Shown one piece after another: positions 4,188 to 62,304 of a DNA stretch of 64,000 bases; positions within the stretch are counted from its first letter, which is position 1; each line of letters begins with the position of its first letter. The stretch covers positions 1 to 64,000 of the forward strand of contig JAENZX010000019.1 of NCBI GenBank assembly GCA_016841045.1, written 5' to 3'. Made by a program: the position numbers and the translations under genes. The notes beneath the pieces were generated by a model. The model did no database searches, was not told where the DNA came from, and saw nothing but the letters and a program-made list of their open reading frames with translations. This DNA comes from Thermincola carboxydiphila. GTDB taxonomy: Bacteria; Bacillota; Thermincolia; Thermincolales; UBA2595.

Positions 4188-5709
4188 TTACTACCTCTCC
4201 TTTCGGGTATATCCCCGATTGGGACAATTCTTCGGCTACTTCGAGAGCTTTTAGCAGCGCCTCCGCTTTTTTCAATGATTCAAAATACTCCCTCTCAGGA
4301 ACTGAGTCATCCACTATACCCGCTCCCGCCTGTACATAAGCTTTGCCATTTTTCATAACAATTGTCCGTATAACTATATTCATTTCCATTTCACCGGCAT
4401 ACCCAAAAAACCCGATTGAACCTGTATATGGGCCACGTCGAGTTGGTTCAAGCTCTTCAATAATCTCCATCGAACGTATTTTAGGAGCGCCGGTAATTGT
4501 ACCTCCGGGGAAGCAGGCCTTAAAAAGGTCAAACCGGTTTTTTCCTTCTGCCAGCTGGCCTCTAACATTAGAAACAATGTGCATAACATGTGAATACTCT
4601 TCTATCACCATCAATTCATTTACTTCCACAGTACCGAACTTGCATACCCTGCCAAGATCGTTTCGTTCCAGGTCAACCAGCATTATATGCTCAGCACGTT
4701 CTTTTTCATTTGATACAAGTTCGTTGGCAAGGGTCAGATCTTCTTCCCTGTTTTGTCCTCTTCTTCGGGTTCCTGCAATAGGCCTGGTGTCAGCCATATC
4801 TCCGGTAAGGCGTACTAACAGCTCAGGTGAGGAACTCACTATATGCATATCACCAAAGTCAATGAAGCTCATATATGGTGAAGGGTTAATCTGCCTCAAT
4901 ACCTTATAGAGGAAAAATGGTTCAACAGAGGTCTCTTTCCCCAGCCGGAGGGATAAATTAACCTGAAAAATATCCCCTGCCCGAATATATTCTTTAGCCT
5001 TCACCACCATTTGTTCAAAATGGTCTTTGGTCATATTGCATTCGGGAATAAAACGATTTTTAAGAGCGCGGTCACGGTTGTCCACTGTAAGCTCCCGTCC
5101 AGCTGGGCGGTTTTTGATTTCATGATATAGGCTTAATATTTCATTCTGTGCCAACCTGTATGCATCTGCCGGATCTAACGCTTCTTCGGGAACAACTGTT
5201 ACAATAATATTCATCATACCGTTTAAATGGTCAAAACAAATGACATTGTCAAAAAACAAAAAATATGACTCAGGTAGTTCCAGATCATCTTCGGTCGATT
5301 CGGGTATTACTTCAAAATACCTGCCCATATCATAACTGAAATAGCCCACCGCCCCTCCCCAAAATTTAGGCAGTCCCGGGAACCTTACACCTTTAAAAGA
5401 CTCAACAACCCTTTGTAATTCCTCATAGGGGTCAGCGCCTAATAATACTCTGGGCTGCTGCCCCTGTATTTCTACTGCTGTTCCTCTTGATTTAAAGGTA
5501 AGATTAGGACGAAAACCTAAAAAAGAGTAGCGGGCTAAGTTTTCTGTGCCCTTACCACTTTCTAGAAGGCAAAGGGGCGATCCTGCCAGACCAAGCTTCT
5601 CTATTACAGTAACTGGATTTTCTTCGTCGAGGGGAAATTCTGCCATCACCGGTACCCTTTGCTGTTGAACATAATATTCACAAAATTGTTTCAAGTCTGG
5701 TGTGTACAT
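4180..5709 (-). CDS. pabB: Aminodeoxychorismate synthase component I (TrpE/PabB family)
   Basis: A 509-residue chorismate-binding enzyme. The N-terminal anthranilate-synthase-I domain spans about 15-160, and the chorismate-binding domain about 225-485 with PIAGTRRRG, the GTITGAPK loop, and ELEPTRRGPYTGSIG. The motif reads PIAGT rather than the PIKGT of E. coli PabB, so on residues alone it is TrpE-like; the overlapping pabC gene makes aminodeoxychorismate synthesis the better call. No glutamine amidotransferase subunit (PabA/TrpG) is encoded here, so that must be supplied from elsewhere. The ATG at 5709 has a CCAGGAGG ribosome site. It lies behind a 200-base leader with its own promoter and terminator hairpin. 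Confidence 0.82.
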   Translation of the reverse strand: MYTPDLKQFCEYYVQQQRVPVMAEFPLDEENPVTVIEKLGLAGSPLCLLESGKGTENLARYSFLGFRPNLTFKSRGTAVEIQGQQPRVLLGADPYEELQRVVESFKGVRFPGLPKFWGGAVGYFSYDMGRYFEVIPESTEDDLELPESYFLFFDNVICFDHLNGMMNIIVTVVPEEALDPADAYRLAQNEILSLYHEIKNRPAGRELTVDNRDRALKNRFIPECNMTKDHFEQMVVKAKEYIRAGDIFQVNLSLRLGKETSVEPFFLYKVLRQINPSPYMSFIDFGDMHIVSSSPELLVRLTGDMADTRPIAGTRRRGQNREEDLTLANELVSNEKERAEHIMLVDLERNDLGRVCKFGTVEVNELMVIEEYSHVMHIVSNVRGQLAEGKNRFDLFKACFPGGTITGAPKIRSMEIIEELEPTRRGPYTGSIGFFGYAGEMEMNIVIRTIVMKNGKAYVQAGAGIVDDSVPEREYFESLKKAEALLKALEVAEELSQSGIYPKGEVVSA

Positions 5710-30101: not shown

Positions 30102-30713
30102 TTATAAAGAAACATGGTCTCTTACTTGTACTGAGTTTTCCCTGACACCTGTAAACATTGATTTCACAACATCCCATCCGGATAAAAAAGCACAATAAAC
30201 ATGAACAATAATTGTGATAATAAAAAACCAGGTCATTAGGAAGTGGGTCTGCCTGACAATGACAGGACCTCCTAATAAAAGCGAATATTTAGTTAAGATT
30301 TCTGTTGAATACAACATAAAGCCTGTCGCCGCCTGAAATAAAATCAATAAAACCCAACCATTATATAATACCTTCTGACACGCGTTATAACGCCCTTTGC
30401 ATGGAAGCGAATCGCTGAGGAAAAGGTAATATTTTACAACCTTCGGGAGTTGTTTAAAGTCCCTGAATCTAAAAAAAATCTCCCTATAATCTCTATCAAT
30501 ACAGGAATAGTATATCCTTAAAAAGGTTCCGCTAATTATAAAATACATAGAAATAAAATGTAATTTTCTTGCTGTATCCATGTTTGCAAAAAAAGACAAA
30601 CTAAGCGGGTCCCTAATATATAAACCTGTAAGTATCAACAGTCCCATAAAGGCGGCATTTGTCCAGTGTATTATTCTTGCCGTCAGTGTATGATAAAGCT
30701 TAGCCTTTGCCAA
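30102..30713 (-). CDS. Cytochrome b subunit of the hydrogenase-like complex
   Basis: A 203-residue, four-helix di-heme cytochrome b of the HydC/HyaC type. Helix I RIIHWTNAAFMGLLILTGLYI, helix II RKLHFISMYFIISGTFL, helix III WVLLILFQAATGFMLYS, helix IV RQTHFLMTWFFIITIIVHVYCAFLSGWDVVKSMFTG give the expected histidines for two hemes. Such subunits pass electrons between the periplasmic enzyme and menaquinone. TTG start with GAGGTGA. It follows the large subunit after 36 bases, completing a three-gene operon. Confidence 0.88.
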   Translation of the reverse strand: MAKAKLYHTLTARIIHWTNAAFMGLLILTGLYIRDPLSLSFFANMDTARKLHFISMYFIISGTFLRIYYSCIDRDYREIFFRFRDFKQLPKVVKYYLFLSDSLPCKGRYNACQKVLYNGWVLLILFQAATGFMLYSTEILTKYSLLLGGPVIVRQTHFLMTWFFIITIIVHVYCAFLSGWDVVKSMFTGVRENSVQVRDHVSL

Positions 30714-30749
30714 AACATTTCACCTCATTAGAACAACCCCATGGGGATT

Positions 30750-32093
30750 CTAAAACGACCGTATAATCCTGAATACCTGAATTGGATACTTGTTATTAGC
30801 GATCCTAATTCCTGTAATAGCCCGCTCCATTGGATTCCGCTGGCCTTCGTAGGTTGTCGGGCAAATATTCCACGAATAAGAATCAAAAATATTATATATA
30901 TCAATCTTACCTTTATTAATAGACAGACAGTGTACAATTGAACCACCCGAAGATTCGGCGAAACTAATAGCTTCCCCTTCTTTAGGAATTTCAAATTCTG
31001 ATGCAACGCGTTCTTTTGGATTAAGTTGATCAATCCATATTCTCATTTGTTCAGCAAGCCGGTAACATTCTTCGAGACGCGCCCGTAGTCGGCCCATTAC
31101 AGAAACAGCATTAGTACCTAAATCGGCTATGATTTTATTCCCAGACAGAAACATTCTGGCTACAGCGCCTGTTTCATATGTCTGTTTAGAGTAAACAATT
31201 CCCTTGGTCCAGGAATAACCTCCTGCTTTATCTGGTACCGGTCGAAACTGGGTTTTAAGAGAATTGCCCTTAGTTTCAGCCTCAAAATAGGAACCCGAAT
31301 ATTCAACAGTTAAAAGACTCTTTTGAATATTTACAAGCCCTGATTCATCCAGCGCTTTTGGACTGATATAGTAATTAGAATTTTCTTTTTGAGGAAATTC
31401 ACCAAAAGTCAAAAGCCGGCCTTCCCAGCCGCCTATATTAAAAAAGTCCCTGTAAGCAACTTTTATTTGCCATATGTCATGAGTATACTCCCTGTTAATG
31501 AAATCAGAAACTTGCCTCAACATAGATTTTGCCCTAATTGCATCCGGTCCTGATAAAGCTTTTGATACCCCGCCAGCTACTATATTACTAACATGCGGAG
31601 CTTTCCCTCCAATAAGAGCAATCAAATTATGTATAGTCCTGCGAATTTCATAAGACGTCCACATATGAGTTATCATCTTTTCTACCACGTCTGAAGAAAT
31701 CCGATAGTCAACATCAACTCCGCTGGGATTCCCCGAGCGTGGAATAGGAATATAATCAGGAAGAACATACTGATAAAAATGGGTGATATGTCCGTATATG
31801 ATATCTAGTCCCAGTAAAATATTACGTATTATTTGAGCATTTTCCGGTATCTTTACCTGAGCTATCTCCTCCAGGGCTCTTGCTGCCGCGATAGCATGTG
31901 AAATAAAATCTGTCCCGTTGGTCCTCTGTGATAGAAGTATTGCATCCAAAGGATTCTTACCCTTTAAGGTCTTGGAATGATCCCAATAATATGTAGTGCT
32001 GACTTCAGCAGCTTTTGCATTACTTCCGTGATTATTAAGCAATATCTTTAGGGGACGGGAACACCTATTAAGAGGGTTGATAACGATTGGCAT
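30750..32093 (-). CDS. [NiFe]-hydrogenase-like large subunit lacking both nickel CxxC motifs
   Basis: A 447-residue homologue of uptake-hydrogenase large subunits: IPENAQIIRNILLGLDIIYGHITHFYQ, TFGEFP, SYSWNICP and NPMERAITGIRI-N-KYPIQVFRIIRSF align over the whole length. Yet the N-terminal L1 motif RxCGxC reads RTNGTD (R57-D62; both cysteines gone), the RIEGH motif reads RCSRP (residues 10-14), the RGxE element reads YWDHSK, the APRG arginine region reads ESSGG, and the protein stops exactly before the C-terminal DPCxxCxxH, so no maturation tail exists. No frame shift nearby restores DPC. Catalytic Ni-Fe site cannot form as known; the reading frame is otherwise intact, arguing for a retained non-hydrogenase role. 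Start 32093 overlaps the small-subunit end region, ribosome site GGAGGGTGAT. Confidence 0.88.
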   Translation of the reverse strand: MPIVINPLNRCSRPLKILLNNHGSNAKAAEVSTTYYWDHSKTLKGKNPLDAILLSQRTNGTDFISHAIAAARALEEIAQVKIPENAQIIRNILLGLDIIYGHITHFYQYVLPDYIPIPRSGNPSGVDVDYRISSDVVEKMITHMWTSYEIRRTIHNLIALIGGKAPHVSNIVAGGVSKALSGPDAIRAKSMLRQVSDFINREYTHDIWQIKVAYRDFFNIGGWEGRLLTFGEFPQKENSNYYISPKALDESGLVNIQKSLLTVEYSGSYFEAETKGNSLKTQFRPVPDKAGGYSWTKGIVYSKQTYETGAVARMFLSGNKIIADLGTNAVSVMGRLRARLEECYRLAEQMRIWIDQLNPKERVASEFEIPKEGEAISFAESSGGSIVHCLSINKGKIDIYNIFDSYSWNICPTTYEGQRNPMERAITGIRIANNKYPIQVFRIIRSF

Positions 32094-32095
32094 TA

Positions 32096-33139
32096 CTAAT
32101 CACCCTCCTTGCTTTTATTTTTCCTACCAAGTCTGCCTGAAATAAGGCTTCCCGTAAAATGTATGGCTACTCCTGCTGTAGTAGCAACCCCAAGTACCTT
32201 TCCAATATTATCGGCAGTAGAAGAAATCCCAGGAATACTAATTTCCGGCATCTTTTGGTAAAACGGCATAGTGAGTTCAGGAAATTTGGGGTCAGTACAT
32301 CCAATACATGGTGCATTCCCACTGACACACCAGGAAGAAGATCCATTCCATTGCCTCGTGGGGCAGTCTCCAAAAGCAATTGGACCCTTGCAGCCCATCA
32401 TCAGCATGCATCCTTTTTCTCCTGCTTTTGTGGCAAAAATACTGTTTTCAAAATATTGTCTTAAGGGACAATTGTTATGAATAAGGCCGCCATAAAACAT
32501 CTTAGGACGACCAAAATCATCAAGATCAGGTTTCCCATAAAGCATAATATGTCCAAGCGTTCCTACTATCCAGTCAGGATGAGGAGGGCAACCGGGAATA
32601 TTAATTACTTTACCCGGATCAATTAGGTTTTCAACGCCTACACTATAAGAAACATTGGGTTCTACCGCTGAAACCCCTCCGTAAGAGGCACATGTGCCAA
32701 CAGCTACTACAGTGCCAGCCATTTCACCTAGATTTGATACAACATCAATCAGAGGTATATCATTGCCTGACGAATCCTCTCCTATGATATTAAACGCACC
32801 TTTGTTTGCCTTTGGAATCGCTCCTTCAATTACTAATATAAATTTTCCCCGATGGTTCCGGCCTGTATCCATTGGCGCAGCAGTTTGACCCAAATTAGGA
32901 TGAAAAGTAAGGTCAAGGACTTCACTCAGAATTTCCCTTAGTTCCGGATGTACACTGTTAATAAAAGACGTAGAACAACCACCGCAGGCAGATCCCTGTA
33001 TCCACACAACCGGTAAATTTGCTTTTGCGGCCTCACCAAAGGCTTCTGCTAAAGCTGGTATCCACAGTTGAGATAATCCAGCTGCCGCACCGGAGGCAGC
33101 ACAAATTTTTAAAAATTGTCGCCTACTTAATTTTTTCAT
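32096..33139 (-). CDS. [NiFe]-hydrogenase-like small subunit, Tat-exported
   Basis: A 347-residue subunit with a Tat signal SRRQFLK (residues 5-11) and hydrophobic AASGAAAGLSQLWIP, and a C-terminal membrane anchor (VLGVATTAGVAIHFTGSLI). All iron-sulfur ligands appear: proximal cluster from GSACGGCSTSF, GTCASYGG, PGCPPHP; distal from HNNCPL...KGCMLMMGC; medial from GDCPTRQWN...WCVS...CIGC. So the electron relay looks functional, in contrast to the large subunit encoded 2 bases downstream. Heterodimer export via its Tat signal to the outer face is expected. Upstream is a GTAAC-N4-GTTAC dyad and divergent yyaC. Confidence 0.93.
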   Translation of the reverse strand: MKKLSRRQFLKICAASGAAAGLSQLWIPALAEAFGEAAKANLPVVWIQGSACGGCSTSFINSVHPELREILSEVLDLTFHPNLGQTAAPMDTGRNHRGKFILVIEGAIPKANKGAFNIIGEDSSGNDIPLIDVVSNLGEMAGTVVAVGTCASYGGVSAVEPNVSYSVGVENLIDPGKVINIPGCPPHPDWIVGTLGHIMLYGKPDLDDFGRPKMFYGGLIHNNCPLRQYFENSIFATKAGEKGCMLMMGCKGPIAFGDCPTRQWNGSSSWCVSGNAPCIGCTDPKFPELTMPFYQKMPEISIPGISSTADNIGKVLGVATTAGVAIHFTGSLISGRLGRKNKSKEGD

Positions 33140-36420: not shown

Positions 36421-37272
36421 ATGAATCAAGACAAGTTATTGCATCTCGATGAAATTCTAACACAGATGAACTCTGTTTTGGTTGCGTTTTCAGGAGGTAT
36501 TGACAGTACTCTTTTATTATATTTTTCCTTAAAAACCCTTGGAAAAAATAATGTTTTAGCTGTCACTGCTTCTTCTGAAACTTACCCAGCTGAAGAATGG
36601 CAGTTTGCCAAAAAAACCGCGAATTCTTTAGGAGCTAACCATATTAGTATATTTACGGAAGAGCTTAACGATTCGCGTTTTTATAACAATCCCCCTGAAC
36701 GTTGCTATTACTGCAAAACTGAATTGTTTGGAAAACTAAAAGGAATCGCAGATGACCAACAGCTTAGGTTTGTTGTAGATGGCGCTAATGCAGATGACAT
36801 TAATGATTTCAGGCCTGGAATGAAAGCCGGAAAAGAACTTGGAATAAGAAGCCCTCTCCAAGAAGCCGGACTGACAAAAAATGAAATAAGAGCTATTGCC
36901 CAAAAAGAAGGTTTACCTAACTGGAACAAACCTAGTCAACCGTGCCTGTCGTCACGGTTTCCCTATGGTCAGGTAATAACCGATGAGAAACTGAGGCAAG
37001 TCGATGAAGCGGAACGTTTCCTAAGAAATCTTGGCATGACAGAAATTAGAGTCCGCCATCACGGTGATACAGCCAGAATTGAAGTACCCGAAGCTCTGAT
37101 AGAGAAAATTACCCGGCCTGAATTCAGGCAGGACGTTGTTCAGAAGTTTTCATCTTTGGGTTTCACATATATAACACTGGATCTAAAAGGGTTTCGAAGT
37201 GGAAGTATGAACGAAGTCCTTTCAAAGGAGATAATTGATGGACAAAGAATTTCTGGAGGACCTACTAAATAA
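36421..37272 (+). CDS. larE: LarE sulfur transferase for nickel-pincer nucleotide
   Basis: A 283-residue PP-loop ATPase: AFSGGIDSTLLL (about 21-32) binds ATP. It adds sulfur to the pyridinium dicarboxylate precursor of the NPN cofactor. Cysteine pattern is RCYYCKTE (about 98-105) plus PCLSSRFPYG (about 175), three cysteines in all. The Lactobacillus enzyme sacrifices one cysteine, whereas the three-cysteine type binds a [4Fe-4S] cluster and can turn over; this one matches the latter. Start at ATG 36421 with TATGGAGG. First gene of larE-larB-larC. Confidence 0.92.
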   Translation: MNQDKLLHLDEILTQMNSVLVAFSGGIDSTLLLYFSLKTLGKNNVLAVTASSETYPAEEWQFAKKTANSLGANHISIFTEELNDSRFYNNPPERCYYCKTELFGKLKGIADDQQLRFVVDGANADDINDFRPGMKAGKELGIRSPLQEAGLTKNEIRAIAQKEGLPNWNKPSQPCLSSRFPYGQVITDEKLRQVDEAERFLRNLGMTEIRVRHHGDTARIEVPEALIEKITRPEFRQDVVQKFSSLGFTYITLDLKGFRSGSMNEVLSKEIIDGQRISGGPTK

Positions 37273-37996
37273 GGTAAAACAAGGAACACTAGATATTGCC
37301 GAAGCAATGGATTGTTTAAAAAGTCTACCTTTTGAGGATTTAGGCTTTGCCAAGATTGACCACCACAGATCTCTTAGGACTGGCTTTCCTGAAGTAGTTT
37401 TCTGTCAGGGTAAGCAGCCGTACCAAGTTGTCGAAATAATAGAAAAGCTTTTGGCCAAAAACAATAATATCCTGGCTACCAGAGCAGGGGCTGATACATT
37501 TGAAGCAGTATCTATGAAGTGTCCTGACGCAAAATATCATGAACTGGCACGCTGCATTACAGTTGAACGCAAATCAGGCCATAAATTCAAAAGTCCTGTT
37601 TTGGTTGTCAGCGCCGGCACGGCTGACCTGCCTGTTGCCGAAGAAGCGGCAGTTACAGCGGAAATAATGGGTAATACCGTTAAACGTCTTTATGATGTCG
37701 GCGTCGCCGGGATTCATCGGCTCTTCTATCATAAATCACTGCTCAATGAAGCTGCCGTTATAATTGTTGTTGCAGGTATGGAAGGCGCTCTGGCCAGTGT
37801 AATCGGGGGGCTTGTCGATGTCCCTGTGGTTGCAGTCCCGACAAGCGTCGGCTATGGTACCGGCACAGGTGGATTTGCTGCCCTGCTGGCAATGCTTAAT
37901 TCGTGCGCTTCCGGCCTTGCCGTGGTAAATATTGACAATGGTTTTGGAGCAGCTGCCATGGCTTCTTCTATAATCCGACTGAAGGAAGGTACCTAA
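37238..37996 (+). CDS. larB: LarB, pyridinium-3,5-biscarboxylate mononucleotide synthase
   Basis: A 252-residue protein that carboxylates nicotinate adenine dinucleotide, the first step of NPN synthesis. The C-terminal PurE-like domain shows SAGTADLPVAEEAAVTAEIMG, YDVGVAGIHRL, VVAGMEGALASVIGGLVDVPVVAVPTSVGYG and NIDNGFGAA. The ATG at 37238 (AAAGGAG before it) lies 35 bases inside larE; the genes overlap and are presumably coupled. Confidence 0.94.
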   Translation: MDKEFLEDLLNKVKQGTLDIAEAMDCLKSLPFEDLGFAKIDHHRSLRTGFPEVVFCQGKQPYQVVEIIEKLLAKNNNILATRAGADTFEAVSMKCPDAKYHELARCITVERKSGHKFKSPVLVVSAGTADLPVAEEAAVTAEIMGNTVKRLYDVGVAGIHRLFYHKSLLNEAAVIIVVAGMEGALASVIGGLVDVPVVAVPTSVGYGTGTGGFAALLAMLNSCASGLAVVNIDNGFGAAAMASSIIRLKEGT

Positions 37997-39208
37997 ATGA
38001 GGACTCTTTATCTGGACTGCTTTGCAGGCATAAGCGGCGATATGTTCCTGGGTGCATTAACCGACCTGGGAATCTCTTTAGATGATTTAACTACCAGTTT
38101 AGCCGGACTGGATTTACCTGACTACCATATTAGTCTGGAAAAAGTCCAAAAAAACGGCATCAGCGGAACTAAATTTTTTGTGCATGTTAATGAAAAAGGC
38201 TTTAATCACCGCCATTTATCTGATATCAAGAATATCATAATTAAAAGCACTCTCCCTAAACAAGTAAAAACCGCAAGTGTCCAGGTGTTTGAAAATCTGG
38301 CTGCTGCTGAAGCAAAAATTCATGGTATTTCTCCTGAAGAGGTTCACTTCCATGAAGTGGGCGCAATTGACTCAATCATCGACATAATTGGAACAATTAT
38401 TGCTCTCGATTTATTGAGTATTAAGAAGATAATGTGCTCACCTCTTCCACTTGGTTTTGGCTTTGTAGACTGTGCTCATGGTATTCTCCCGCTTCCGGCT
38501 CCCGCTGCTCTTGAACTTTTAACCGGTATCCCAACAAAAAAATGCGACATTGAGGGAGAAACAGTGACTCCAACTGGTGCAGCACTAATTAAGACCCTAT
38601 GTCAGGAGTTTGGGCCGATCCCCTCCATGCAGATTTCTAAAATAGGCTATGGAGCAGGAACAGCTGACCGCAAAGTTCCCAATCTGCTGCGCGCTGTACT
38701 GGGTGAAATTGAACAGGAGTCATACCCTTCAGACCTGGATTCTGATTTGACAACAGTTATTGAAGTTAATATCGACGACATGAATCCTGAGTTTTATGAG
38801 CATATATTATCACAGCTTTTTTCTAAGGGAGCGCTTGATGTATATCTAACCCCGGTAATTATGAAGAAAGGAAGGCCCGGTCAGGTATTGACCTGCCTGG
38901 CACCAAAAAATAATACTAAACCTCTGGTTGACATTTTATTTTCTGAAACCTCTACTTTGGGTGTTCGTACATATACTACTAACAGGTTTAAGCTGTTTCG
39001 TGAAATTGTAACAGTAGACACCATTTACGGCACTATTAAAATAAAACTGGGTCGCCGAACAGGATCAAGTGATATACTAACTGCTGCCCCTGAGTGGGAG
39101 GACTGTAAAGAAATAGCCCGGCTAAATAACATTCCGGCAAAAGCTGTTTATGATATTGCAAAGGCCCAGTTTTTAATTTCAAATCAAAAAATAAACGGCA
39201 AACCATAA
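37997..39208 (+). CDS. larC: LarC nickel insertase, single intact frame
   Basis: A 403-residue protein that puts nickel into the pincer cofactor. N-terminal DCFAGISGDMFLGAL and histidine-rich FNHRHLSDI, HFHEVGAIDSIIDIIG; C-terminal VNIDDMNPEFYEHI, VYLTPVIMKKGRPG. In some lactobacilli larC is two frames joined by frameshifting; here one frame covers both parts. Starts on the base after the larB stop. LarA, the lactate racemase, is not in the window, so the cofactor serves an enzyme encoded elsewhere. Confidence 0.93.
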   Translation: MRTLYLDCFAGISGDMFLGALTDLGISLDDLTTSLAGLDLPDYHISLEKVQKNGISGTKFFVHVNEKGFNHRHLSDIKNIIIKSTLPKQVKTASVQVFENLAAAEAKIHGISPEEVHFHEVGAIDSIIDIIGTIIALDLLSIKKIMCSPLPLGFGFVDCAHGILPLPAPAALELLTGIPTKKCDIEGETVTPTGAALIKTLCQEFGPIPSMQISKIGYGAGTADRKVPNLLRAVLGEIEQESYPSDLDSDLTTVIEVNIDDMNPEFYEHILSQLFSKGALDVYLTPVIMKKGRPGQVLTCLAPKNNTKPLVDILFSETSTLGVRTYTTNRFKLFREIVTVDTIYGTIKIKLGRRTGSSDILTAAPEWEDCKEIARLNNIPAKAVYDIAKAQFLISNQKINGKP

Positions 39209-59787: not shown

Positions 59788-60717
59788 ATGTGCCCAAAGA
59801 ATAGACGCACCTTATTGGCAATGGTATTAACAATTATAATATACCTCACTTTCTTAATATTTGGATCAGCAGTTTACGCAGAAGACAGTCTTGCAAAGGC
59901 TGCTCGAATTAATGAAGGATGTTTGAGATGTCATGGTGCGCAGGGTTTAAAAACTAAGTTTGACGGCAATACAGTCTCTCTATATGTTGATGAAGAAAAA
60001 TATAAAGTGTCTATGCATGGAACAATGGCTTGTACTTATTGTCATACAAATATTTCGGATTATCCTCATACCAAAGCGTTAACAGGAAAGGCTCTTGTAG
60101 ATCAAGTTAACAGTGAATGCCGTCGATGTCATCAAGATGTTACCTCACTTTATAAGACTAGTATACATGGGCAATTGAACAAGAAAAAGGGGCAATTGAA
60201 CGCATATTGCAGCGATTGTCACGGAATACACAATATTTATAAAAAAGAAGACTTAAAAGCCACTATTTATCACAGCAATGTAATAAAAACCTGTGGTAAA
60301 TGCCATGAAGAGATCTATGAAAAAGCATATATGGAAAGTTTCCATGGAAAAAGCGTCTTCCTGGGGGGCAAGAAAGCTGCCAGTTGTGTAAGCTGCCACG
60401 GCAGCCATACAATTCTGGGGCCAGCCAATCCGGCATCTACGGTTTATAAGGATAATATACCCGAGACTTGTGCCAAATGTCACTTATATCCGCTTGAAAA
60501 TTTTAAAGAAGGAAAAGAACACTTTTTTTTAGAGCCTAAGGGTGATGGGGCACCAATGTTTTGGACACTGATGTTTTTTACATGGTTAACAATAATAGTT
60601 GTAACAACACTCATAATACATATGGAGCTTGAGCTATATAGAAAATTAAAAAATGCTGGCACGACGGATGTTAATCGCCGGAAGGATGTTAATACAGATA
60701 AGAACTATCCGGTTTAA
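59788..60717 (+). CDS. Seven-heme c-type cytochrome, membrane anchored
   Basis: A 309-residue protein with an N-terminal signal/anchor (LAMVLTIIIYLTFLIFGSAVYA) and a C-terminal membrane helix (FWTLMFFTWLTIIVVTTLII). Seven CxxCH motifs: CLRCH, CTYCH, CRRCH, CSDCH, CGKCH, CVSCH, CAKCH, spaced 25-40 residues apart, plus extra histidines (SMHG, SIHG, SFHG) that can ligate the sixth position. No CxxCK, so not a NrfA-like catalytic heme. It is the first gene of a 4-gene operon with a cytochrome b and should transfer electrons outside the membrane. Function is inferred; no known enzyme matches all features. Confidence 0.9.
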   Translation: MCPKNRRTLLAMVLTIIIYLTFLIFGSAVYAEDSLAKAARINEGCLRCHGAQGLKTKFDGNTVSLYVDEEKYKVSMHGTMACTYCHTNISDYPHTKALTGKALVDQVNSECRRCHQDVTSLYKTSIHGQLNKKKGQLNAYCSDCHGIHNIYKKEDLKATIYHSNVIKTCGKCHEEIYEKAYMESFHGKSVFLGGKKAASCVSCHGSHTILGPANPASTVYKDNIPETCAKCHLYPLENFKEGKEHFFLEPKGDGAPMFWTLMFFTWLTIIVVTTLIIHMELELYRKLKNAGTTDVNRRKDVNTDKNYPV

Positions 60718-60738
60718 TAAGGGAAGGAGGGGAACTTG

Positions 60739-61521
60739 ATGATTTCTATGTCTTTAGTTAAAGAATCTTCTTCAAATACACAAGTGAAATATCAACGGTG
60801 GAATATTCACCACCGCATAGTTCATTTTGGAATATTGTCAACATTTACTCTATGTGCATTGACCGGTTTACCTCTTAAGTTTCATTACAAAGGATGGGCT
60901 CAGGTCTTAGCGAAGTTTTTTGGAGGCGGAGATGGATTGCTGCAGTGGCACTTGGTTGGGGCAGTAATACTTTTTATAGTATGTGCTTATCACCTTGTCT
61001 ACAGCATTTCATATGCAGTAATTAAAAAAGATTTTTCAGTAGGTACAAGGCCAACCTTTAAAATGGGGAGAGACATGGTTCAAAATATAAAATATTTTCT
61101 GGGTAAAGTTGAAGAGCCTCCTAAGTTTGATCGGTATACTTACAAGGAATTTCTTGATTACTGGGCTGTTTTTTGGGGGATGGCCATCATTGGTGGCTCA
61201 GGTCTTATGATGTGGCTGCCGGAATGGACCATGAAATATTTTCCACGGTGGGTACTGGACTCCTATCGAATGGGCCATAGCGATGAAGCTGTATTAGCTG
61301 TTTTGGTTATCTTTATCTGGCATTTCTATAATGTCCATTTCAATCCTGATTTCTTCCCAATGAATTACACATGGTGGGATGGTAATATGTCAGAGGAAGT
61401 AATGGAGCATGAGCATGGAGCCGAATTAGAGAGAATCAAGGTCAATAATGAGCTATCTTTTGGTCTAACACGTATGACTATCGTTGATGAATCAGATATT
61501 AATACACCCGGTTTAAAGTAG
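60739..61521 (+). CDS. Cytochrome b, prokaryotic b561/FdnI-like
   Basis: A 260-residue four-helix cytochrome b. Helix I WNIHHRIVHFGILSTFTLCALTGLPLKF, helix II LQWHLVGAVILFIVCAYHLVYS, helix III DYWAVFWGMAIIGGSGLMMWLP, helix IV SDEAVLAVLVIFIWHFYNVHFNPDFFPM; the histidines support two or three b hemes. Such proteins oxidise or reduce menaquinone for periplasmic cytochromes. ATG 60739 after GAAGGAGGGG. Lies 21 bases after the 7-heme gene. Confidence 0.88.
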   Translation: MISMSLVKESSSNTQVKYQRWNIHHRIVHFGILSTFTLCALTGLPLKFHYKGWAQVLAKFFGGGDGLLQWHLVGAVILFIVCAYHLVYSISYAVIKKDFSVGTRPTFKMGRDMVQNIKYFLGKVEEPPKFDRYTYKEFLDYWAVFWGMAIIGGSGLMMWLPEWTMKYFPRWVLDSYRMGHSDEAVLAVLVIFIWHFYNVHFNPDFFPMNYTWWDGNMSEEVMEHEHGAELERIKVNNELSFGLTRMTIVDESDINTPGLK

Positions 61522-61556
61522 TACTCAAAAATTATTAGAAATAAGGGGGAGTCAGC

Positions 61557-61676
61557 ATGTCTAGTCCCTGGTCTAAAAATAAGGGGTTAATTATAAGTGA
61601 AATGATAATTTACGGAGCTATACTAATATGGTTCCTGGCATGGTTTCTACCGATAGGCTTTGGGAAGGTTCACTAA
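61557..61676 (+). CDS. 39-residue single-helix membrane peptide
   Basis: Starts ATG 61557 behind AAGGGGGAGT; SSPWSKNKGLIISEMIIYGAILIWFLAWFLPIGFGKVH. One hydrophobic helix (ISEMIIYGAILIWFLAWFLPIGF). Position between the cytochrome b and the six-heme cytochrome genes, with good ribosome site and no other frame, supports a real subunit of the complex. Easily missed by gene callers. No known family. Confidence 0.72.
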   Translation: MSSPWSKNKGLIISEMIIYGAILIWFLAWFLPIGFGKVH

Positions 61677-61716
61677 AAAATGTTGAATTCAATCCGTAAA
61701 GGAGGCCCGGTATTAC

Positions 61717-62304
61717 ATGAAATTAATAAAGTTTTTTATTGCAACTTTTATAGTGGCAGCCGTGGCAGCAGTTTTCTTCAATTCAAATGCCTTTTCTGAC
61801 GAGAATTACCGAAAAGACATAGGTTTTTGCGTAAACTGCCATGAGATGAAACCCAATTATTTTACCTGGAAGGTTACCTCTCACAATCAATTCGGCTGCA
61901 TAAAATGCCACCAGGATTTAAATCCAACTACATTTGTTTACAAACACTGGAAAGGTGTAGTACCCAATCCAATCGAAAGTAGAGAAATCATACCTGACGG
62001 AGTGTGTAGGAACTGTCATACACAAAAACGAACTATTACTCCACCCGATGATATAATTTTTCCACACCAGCTGCATGTTATGAAACAGATTGACTGCGTT
62101 GATTGCCATAGTAATGTAACACATCTAAACATCGCTGACCATATTAAAAAGAATGAGAATTTCTCTTCTGCAGCTTTTAATGAATCTAAAGCAACGCAGC
62201 TCATAAAGAAAAAAAATCAGATCCCTATGCCGGTTTGCATGAGGTGCCACAATGGTCAAATGGCCACGGATAAATGTAACGCATGCCATAAAAAAGATAA
62301 GTAA
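61717..62304 (+). CDS. Six-heme c-type cytochrome
   Basis: A 195-residue protein with one N-terminal signal/anchor (FFIATFIVAAVAAVFF) and six CxxCH motifs: CVNCH, CIKCH, CRNCH, CVDCH, CMRCH, CNACH. The N-terminal part (IGFCVNCHEMKP, then SHNQFGCIKCH) is NapC/NrfH-like; the rest is more divergent. Last gene of the cytochrome operon. GGAGGCCC ribosome site. A quinol-oxidising or terminal electron-carrier role is inferred. Confidence 0.88.
   Translation: MKLIKFFIATFIVAAVAAVFFNSNAFSDENYRKDIGFCVNCHEMKPNYFTWKVTSHNQFGCIKCHQDLNPTTFVYKHWKGVVPNPIESREIIPDGVCRNCHTQKRTITPPDDIIFPHQLHVMKQIDCVDCHSNVTHLNIADHIKKNENFSSAAFNESKATQLIKKKNQIPMPVCMRCHNGQMATDKCNACHKKDK

Follow-up and report, generated by a model that had tools for sequence, protein, structure and literature searches.

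A hydrogenase-like complex without a nickel-iron site, conserved with its electron-transfer chain in Thermincola carboxydiphila and related bacteria

The window analyzed here, a stretch of 64,000 nucleotides from Thermincola carboxydiphila (assembly GCA_016841045.1, contig JAENZX010000019.1, positions 1 to 64,000), carries on its minus strand a three-gene operon of hydrogenase type. Its small subunit (32096-33139, minus strand, 347 amino acids) carries a Tat signal and a C-terminal membrane anchor as well as the ligands of three [4Fe-4S] clusters; it matches the Oxidored_q6, NiFe_hyd_SSU_C and TAT_signal profiles and, at 241.8 bits, exceeds the cut-off of TIGR00391 (hydA). The large subunit (30750-32093, minus strand, 447 amino acids) scores 207.8 bits against Pfam NiFeSe_Hases (cut-off 25.8) and aligns with NCBIfam H2_NiFeSe_large from residue 3 to its very end, but falls far below all hydrogenase equivalog cut-offs (284 vs 600 bits); it lacks the L1 and L2 cysteines, the RIEGH glutamate, the catalytic arginine and the C-terminal extension. 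The third gene (30102-30713, minus strand) encodes a cytochrome b561 / Ni,Fe-hydrogenase b-type cytochrome, a probable quinone-linked membrane subunit, recognized by TIGR02125 (125.4 bits, cut-off 121.5) and by PF01292 (Ni_hydr_CYTB). No match to the maturation protease model TIGR00072 was found at the operon.

The Tat motif of the small subunit reads SRRQFLK. All four proximal-cluster ligands (C52, C55, C150 and C184) are present, with CxxC spacing, together with those of the distal (H221, C224, C244 and C250) and medial (C259, C271, C278 and C281) clusters, under an assignment of ligands to clusters that we take from established hydrogenase structures. Where three-iron medial clusters have a proline, C271 is found, a cysteine shared with NiFeSe enzymes, so that three [4Fe-4S] clusters would be expected. 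Every one of these ligands is invariant in eight aligned small subunits, that of the distant relative G009 (below) included, and the cytochrome retains its conserved histidines (H8, H16, H52, H157 and H171). One of our criteria for a group-1 hydrogenase was that the small subunit be Tat-exported, have Fe-S ligands and be accompanied by a cytochrome b, and the locus satisfies it. A preliminary description of this DNA, which had credited the small subunit with every Fe-S ligand and a Tat signal, the cytochrome with its histidines, and the 447-codon large subunit with an end-to-end hydrogenase alignment, proved accurate on each of these points.

L1, the RIEGH loop and the APRG-type arginine, known hydrogenase active-site positions, are all altered in the large subunit: RIEGH is replaced by RCSRP (residues 10-14), RxCGxC (L1) by RTNGTD (residues 57-62), the APRG region reads ESSGG (residues 380-384), and the protein ends in RSF and a stop codon, just where DPCxxC (L2) would come next. 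These motifs had been quoted in the same description, all correctly. Displacement of the DPCxxC tail downstream could be ruled out, because the large-subunit stop and the cytochrome b start lie only 36 bases apart and leave no room for it. The RIEGH glutamate is absent also from some Cys-intact relatives in the alignment, so the arginine is the stronger test.

Orthologues were sought in the 9 available genomes of the family (the whole class comprises 10 genomes, several of them incomplete). Full-length copies of the large subunit, 45-49% identical, occur in seven other family genomes; the Cys-less protein ending in RSF is therefore present in 8 of the 9, the window's genome included, and absent from G001. 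All seven orthologues share the chromosomal place, the same losses and a C-terminal end of exactly RSF; their L1 reads RTSGxD, RCSGxD or RTNGLD, without either L1 cysteine in any of them, and the canonical active-site arginine (position 383) is Q, G or H in family members. The small subunit is 54-64% identical to its orthologues. The bacteria concerned, relatives of Thermincola, are heat-loving and for the most part uncultured. A ninth member, syntenic and more diverged, was found in G009 (P0004), from a second family of the order, the only other one available in the class, where the large subunit has RINSHL in place of RICGVC and ends in RAFE; between window and G009, identity is 54% for the small subunit and 30-31% for the large. 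Two neighbors of the G009 operon may be recorded in passing. Downstream of its Cys-less large subunit lies a second, shorter small subunit (L078:9105-9839) that stops before the medial and distal ligands. Directly upstream (L078:4191-6386) a ferredoxin and iron-hydrogenase-like part is fused to a sigma-54 activator; this protein, whose domains were judged by eye, is possibly a redox regulator of the operon.

A search of 399 sampled genomes from the phylum gave next best matches of 395 bits, less than half the score, against 768-828 bits for the Cys-less family. About two dozen matches were read, and L1 and L2 were intact in all the lower-scoring ones among them; some have an in-frame TGA, as in selenocysteine enzymes. 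Two intact large subunits from the phylum (L103:3717-5096 and L105:3123-4523) end just after DVCSACATH or DLCLACAAH and would accordingly need no C-terminal cleavage. Trees built from 36-41 large subunits unite the Cys-less proteins in a single clade (n = 9, support 100/99) that also survives the removal of long branches, which makes one origin the simplest reading. The clade has a long stem, and its attachment among group-1 enzymes is unresolved.

Pairwise Nei-Gojobori comparisons in two genera gave dN/dS values of 0.11, 0.13, 0.20 and 0.16 for the Cys-less large subunit, at dS of 0.35-1.0; in the same genomes, intact hydrogenases gave 0.04-0.13, and the partner small subunit gave 0.06-0.11. 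On these estimates the large-subunit gene is constrained, somewhat less so than that of an active hydrogenase. Chance and sequencing error are excluded by the seven orthologues with the same losses and the same end, and the orthologues and dN/dS together rule out a sequencing error, a frameshift or a pseudogene. The window protein sits on a long branch (0.88-0.89) and G001 has lost the operon, as one might expect of a former hydrogenase that is decaying and has been kept by chance, but frames that are open in nine genomes, dN/dS far below 1, an intact small subunit and cytochrome, and a shared C-terminal end leave that explanation only a very slim chance; decay is refuted for the lineage as a whole, although not for the window species alone. 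The preliminary description had inferred a coordinated loss instead of random decay, and had proposed to examine homologues, phylogeny and selection. Each of these examinations came out on its side, with the cysteine loss and RSF end recurring in seven orthologues, a single clade (100/99) set against group-1 hydrogenases, and dN/dS of 0.11-0.20 that speaks for no dying pseudogene; the retained fold lends it further support. Not one of the three outcomes that the description had named as refuting turned up, whereas its functional part, that electrons move between menaquinone and an unknown partner or that another cofactor is used, stays at the level of inference.

That fold was assessed in an AlphaFold monomer of the window large subunit (mean pLDDT 90.6, pTM 0.92), built on a 40-sequence alignment. 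Foldseek matched it to NiFeSe hydrogenases (TM 0.94-0.95), and against 6z8j_B the TM-scores were 0.95 (query) and 0.88 (target), which satisfied our criterion for a group-1 large-subunit fold. The fold is thus intact in the model, but it should be borne in mind that most rows of the alignment (31 of 40) are intact hydrogenases. The observations on the large subunit establish a protein that has kept the hydrogenase fold and offers neither a Ni-Fe ligand nor a substrate for a maturation protease.

The former active site has not merely been emptied of its ligands. Among the positions invariant in the compared intact enzymes, those changed in 8 of 8 family members include G13R, G33T, R37W and G38D, the L1 cysteines (to S/N and D), A292G, A298G, Arg383 and D414T; C411, where intact enzymes have Ser or Gly, is invariant in the family. 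At former active-site positions all eight members have R13, T33, W37, D38, D62, C411 and T414 in common. Of the new residues G009 keeps only W37 (and Y36), without D62 and C411, so the pocket differs across the order. One might suppose that the pocket holds another metal or cofactor, bound for example through D62, C411, H66 and H388, and that the complex is a new metalloenzyme. The invariance of D62 and C411 in the eight family members is compatible with this, and so is the proximity of larE-larB-larC, the nickel-pincer cofactor genes (window 36421-39208, in a conserved neighborhood). We nevertheless consider it improbable. Of the ligand positions in the Cys-less family, those of L1 supply only one Ser/Asn and one Asp and both of L2 are nonexistent, so that, as far as can be told from residues alone, the redox partner is more likely to be organic or a protein than a replacement metal; D62 and C411 are missing from G009; and G001, which has lost the complex, still has larBCE at this location. 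The last observation makes lar a mere neighborhood and rules out a nickel-pincer link of the complex to larBCE.

The surroundings of the operon bear also on the question whether a nickel center could be made at all. The usual order in relatives is larC-larB-larE, a short membrane protein, a small conserved protein, a phosphoribosyltransferase and yyaC, followed in most of them by the genes for small subunit, large subunit and cytochrome b, then hypA-hypB, cvpA and an M18 peptidase. In each relative with that order the sole HypB over cut-off in the genome is the one behind the operon; in G002 it lies on another contig. G001 passes from yyaC directly to hypA-hypB, the three genes of the complex being cleanly deleted, whereas the window's genome has the complex and no hypAB behind it, and throughout its assembly no match over cut-off was found for HypB, HypD, HypE or HypF (HypA and HypC were not included in the genome-wide search). 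HypB, HypD and HypE are present in the other nine genomes, and HypF exceeds its cut-off in eight. An assembly gap is not a convincing explanation of the missing genes: the window itself shows the hypAB site to be empty, and at the hypFCDE site (L156:5361-10185, G000:C2, on a 307-kb contig) the flanks, an aminotransferase and DUF3842-cob, are intact, with a reverse transcriptase, an unknown gene and a GmrSD-type gene between them. These three genes may represent a defense island. Going by the assembly, this cell can no longer build an Fe(CN)2CO center, and yet it keeps the complex. Judged by gene content, it is separated from nickel chemistry by two opposite losses, in the window's genome and in G001.

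The same genome does encode an intact-looking large subunit (G000:C40, L043:5613-7942), with RICGIC, DPCVSC, a cleavable tail and its own protease gene (4659-5135); the second part of that contig deviates in composition (46% GC). Without HypB, HypD, HypE and HypF this hydrogenase is either unmaturable, or located on a foreign contig, or served by another maturation route. The complete second hydrogenase that the preliminary description had suggested looking for has accordingly been located as a large-subunit gene, whereas none of HypB, HypD, HypE and HypF has been found in the genome. Two small subunits (L043:5613-6533 and L079:6788-8086) have Asn for the second proximal-cluster cysteine (CSGN for CxGC); their partners are intact large subunits. 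As to the Cys-less complex, its overall fold and subunit set, and the adjacency of hypAB in most relatives, would still be compatible with a hydrogenase of unusual active site, but the lack of any L1 or L2 thiolate ligand, together with the absence of HypB/D/E/F from the window's genome, makes this scarcely tenable. Having neither Ni-Fe ligands nor maturation, the complex can hardly still be a hydrogenase, an inference from its genes, H2 activity not having been assayed.

What remains conserved is a wire that leads from quinone to the outside face and carries a cap shaped like a hydrogenase. We favor, at roughly even confidence, an extracytoplasmic, quinone-linked electron-transfer complex with a repurposed pocket, its activity, substrate and direction being inferred. 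The operon would encode a membrane-bound oxidoreductase that descends from a [NiFe]-hydrogenase of the group-1 uptake type, and its large subunit would pass the Tat pore together with the small subunit; electrons would travel among menaquinone pool, b hemes and the three Fe-S clusters, the proximal of which would exchange them with a partner other than H2, most likely in the pocket vacated by the NiFe center and remodeled by family-specific residues. The likeliest direction, itself a guess, would be menaquinol oxidation with reduction of an external acceptor; it is favored because those relatives that have a name respire and reduce metals. For Thermincola, a membrane cytochrome has been proposed to oxidize menaquinol and to feed an extracellular cytochrome chain (PMC7911101), a scheme that makes a second quinone-linked exit plausible without demonstrating it. 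Elsewhere in the window (59788-62304) a seven-heme cytochrome, a b561-type cytochrome and a NapC/c7-like cytochrome with six CXXCH motifs stand in a row, likely a quinone-to-outside electron path.

No biochemical data exist for this proposal, and none of the genes in the operon gives away the acceptor or donor. Moreover, the large subunit evolves faster than canonical ones, and most pocket residues are not kept in G009, so that different members may bind different things there, or nothing. The large subunit might be only a structural chaperone and cap that serves folding, export and shielding of the small subunit, its pocket without any substrate, while the partner docks elsewhere, for example a multiheme cytochrome of the cell wall. 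Such an arrangement would accord with the faster evolution just mentioned, with the much stronger conservation of the small subunit between window and G009, and with the many multiheme cytochromes used by Thermincola-type bacteria (PMC4582578, PMC7911101). We regard it as unlikely, if the most serious of the alternatives, given that the invariant new residues at the former site in eight family members go beyond what a passive filler needs and that the operon has no cytochrome c gene. A sensor of quinone or extracellular redox state, like the regulatory hydrogenases, would also combine lost catalysis with a retained electron chain, and the putative regulator directly upstream in G009 would suit it; regulatory hydrogenases, however, are cytoplasmic, while this complex is Tat-exported with a quinone-type cytochrome, and no regulator gene stands in the operon of the window or of the other relatives, so that a sensory role has little to recommend it. 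The quinone-linked electron-transfer complex remains our preferred reading; its fullest form, a new class of extracytoplasmic oxidoreductase that arose by an independent and complete loss of NiFe and rebuilt the pocket as a substrate site, is offered tentatively, as somewhat more apt to fail than to hold.

Accounts of how complex I arose from hydrogenases usually describe a single series of cysteine losses within group-4 enzymes. Full loss of NiFe in an exported group-1 lineage, with fold and chain kept, provides a second natural experiment on the hydrogenase scaffold and, if our reading is true, a further convergent route from hydrogenase to other function, beside complex I and MBS-type enzymes. 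In Thermincola-type metal reducers, the complex may be an unrecognized quinone-linked exit or entry for electrons. It also carries a warning for annotation, as strong hydrogenase signatures (Pfam) would count these genes, wrongly here, as H2 metabolism.

Among known systems, the closest solved sequences and fold are the periplasmic NiFeSe hydrogenases HysAB (Desulfomicrobium baculatum, 4kl8/1cc1, and Desulfovibrio vulgaris), with an A1 profile score of 307 bits against HysAB-type structures. They share a small subunit with three [4Fe-4S] clusters and Cys instead of Pro at the medial one, but have the four Cys/Sec ligands, the glutamate, the arginine and the C-terminal tail, none of which the window complex retains. 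The group-1 uptake hydrogenases HyaABC/HupSLC resemble it in uniting a Tat small subunit with membrane anchor, a large subunit and a TIGR02125 cytochrome b in one operon, and differ from it in that the window complex has no NiFe site and no maturation protease gene at its operon. MBS, the membrane-bound sulfane reductase of Pyrococcus furiosus, is a hydrogenase relative that lost NiFe and in which the proximal-cluster region serves another substrate (PMC7684303). It is, however, a cytoplasmic group-4 relative with ion pumps, two retained large-subunit cysteines and a three-Cys proximal cluster, whereas no large-subunit ligands are left in the window complex and all four proximal cysteines are kept; an open iron of MBS type is thereby ruled out, and that mechanism does not transfer. 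In NuoB/NuoD of complex I all four NiFe ligands were lost and electron transfer was kept, and in MBS and complex I alike a chamber opened up next to the proximal cluster once NiFe was gone (PMC7684303); exposure of that cluster cannot be read from our model, which comprises the large-subunit monomer only. The repurposing of the pocket would be parallel to, but independent of, that for quinone in complex I and for polysulfide in MBS. The analogy with NuoD drawn in the preliminary description holds insofar as both lost the NiFe site, and fails as to descent: the NuoD model TIGR01962 gave the large subunit 23.8 bits, short of the cut-off of 459.35 that was our criterion, and NuoB has an adjacent CC, unlike the window small subunit with its CxxC spacing and its three clusters. 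By these sequence comparisons the large subunit is no relative of NuoD, and the loss of NiFe is a separate one within a Tat-exported group-1 lineage. A word-based search of a limited literature library found no described group-1 large subunit without NiFe ligands. Hydrogenase-derived complexes without NiFe are already known as a class, and the complex described here is a new variant among them.
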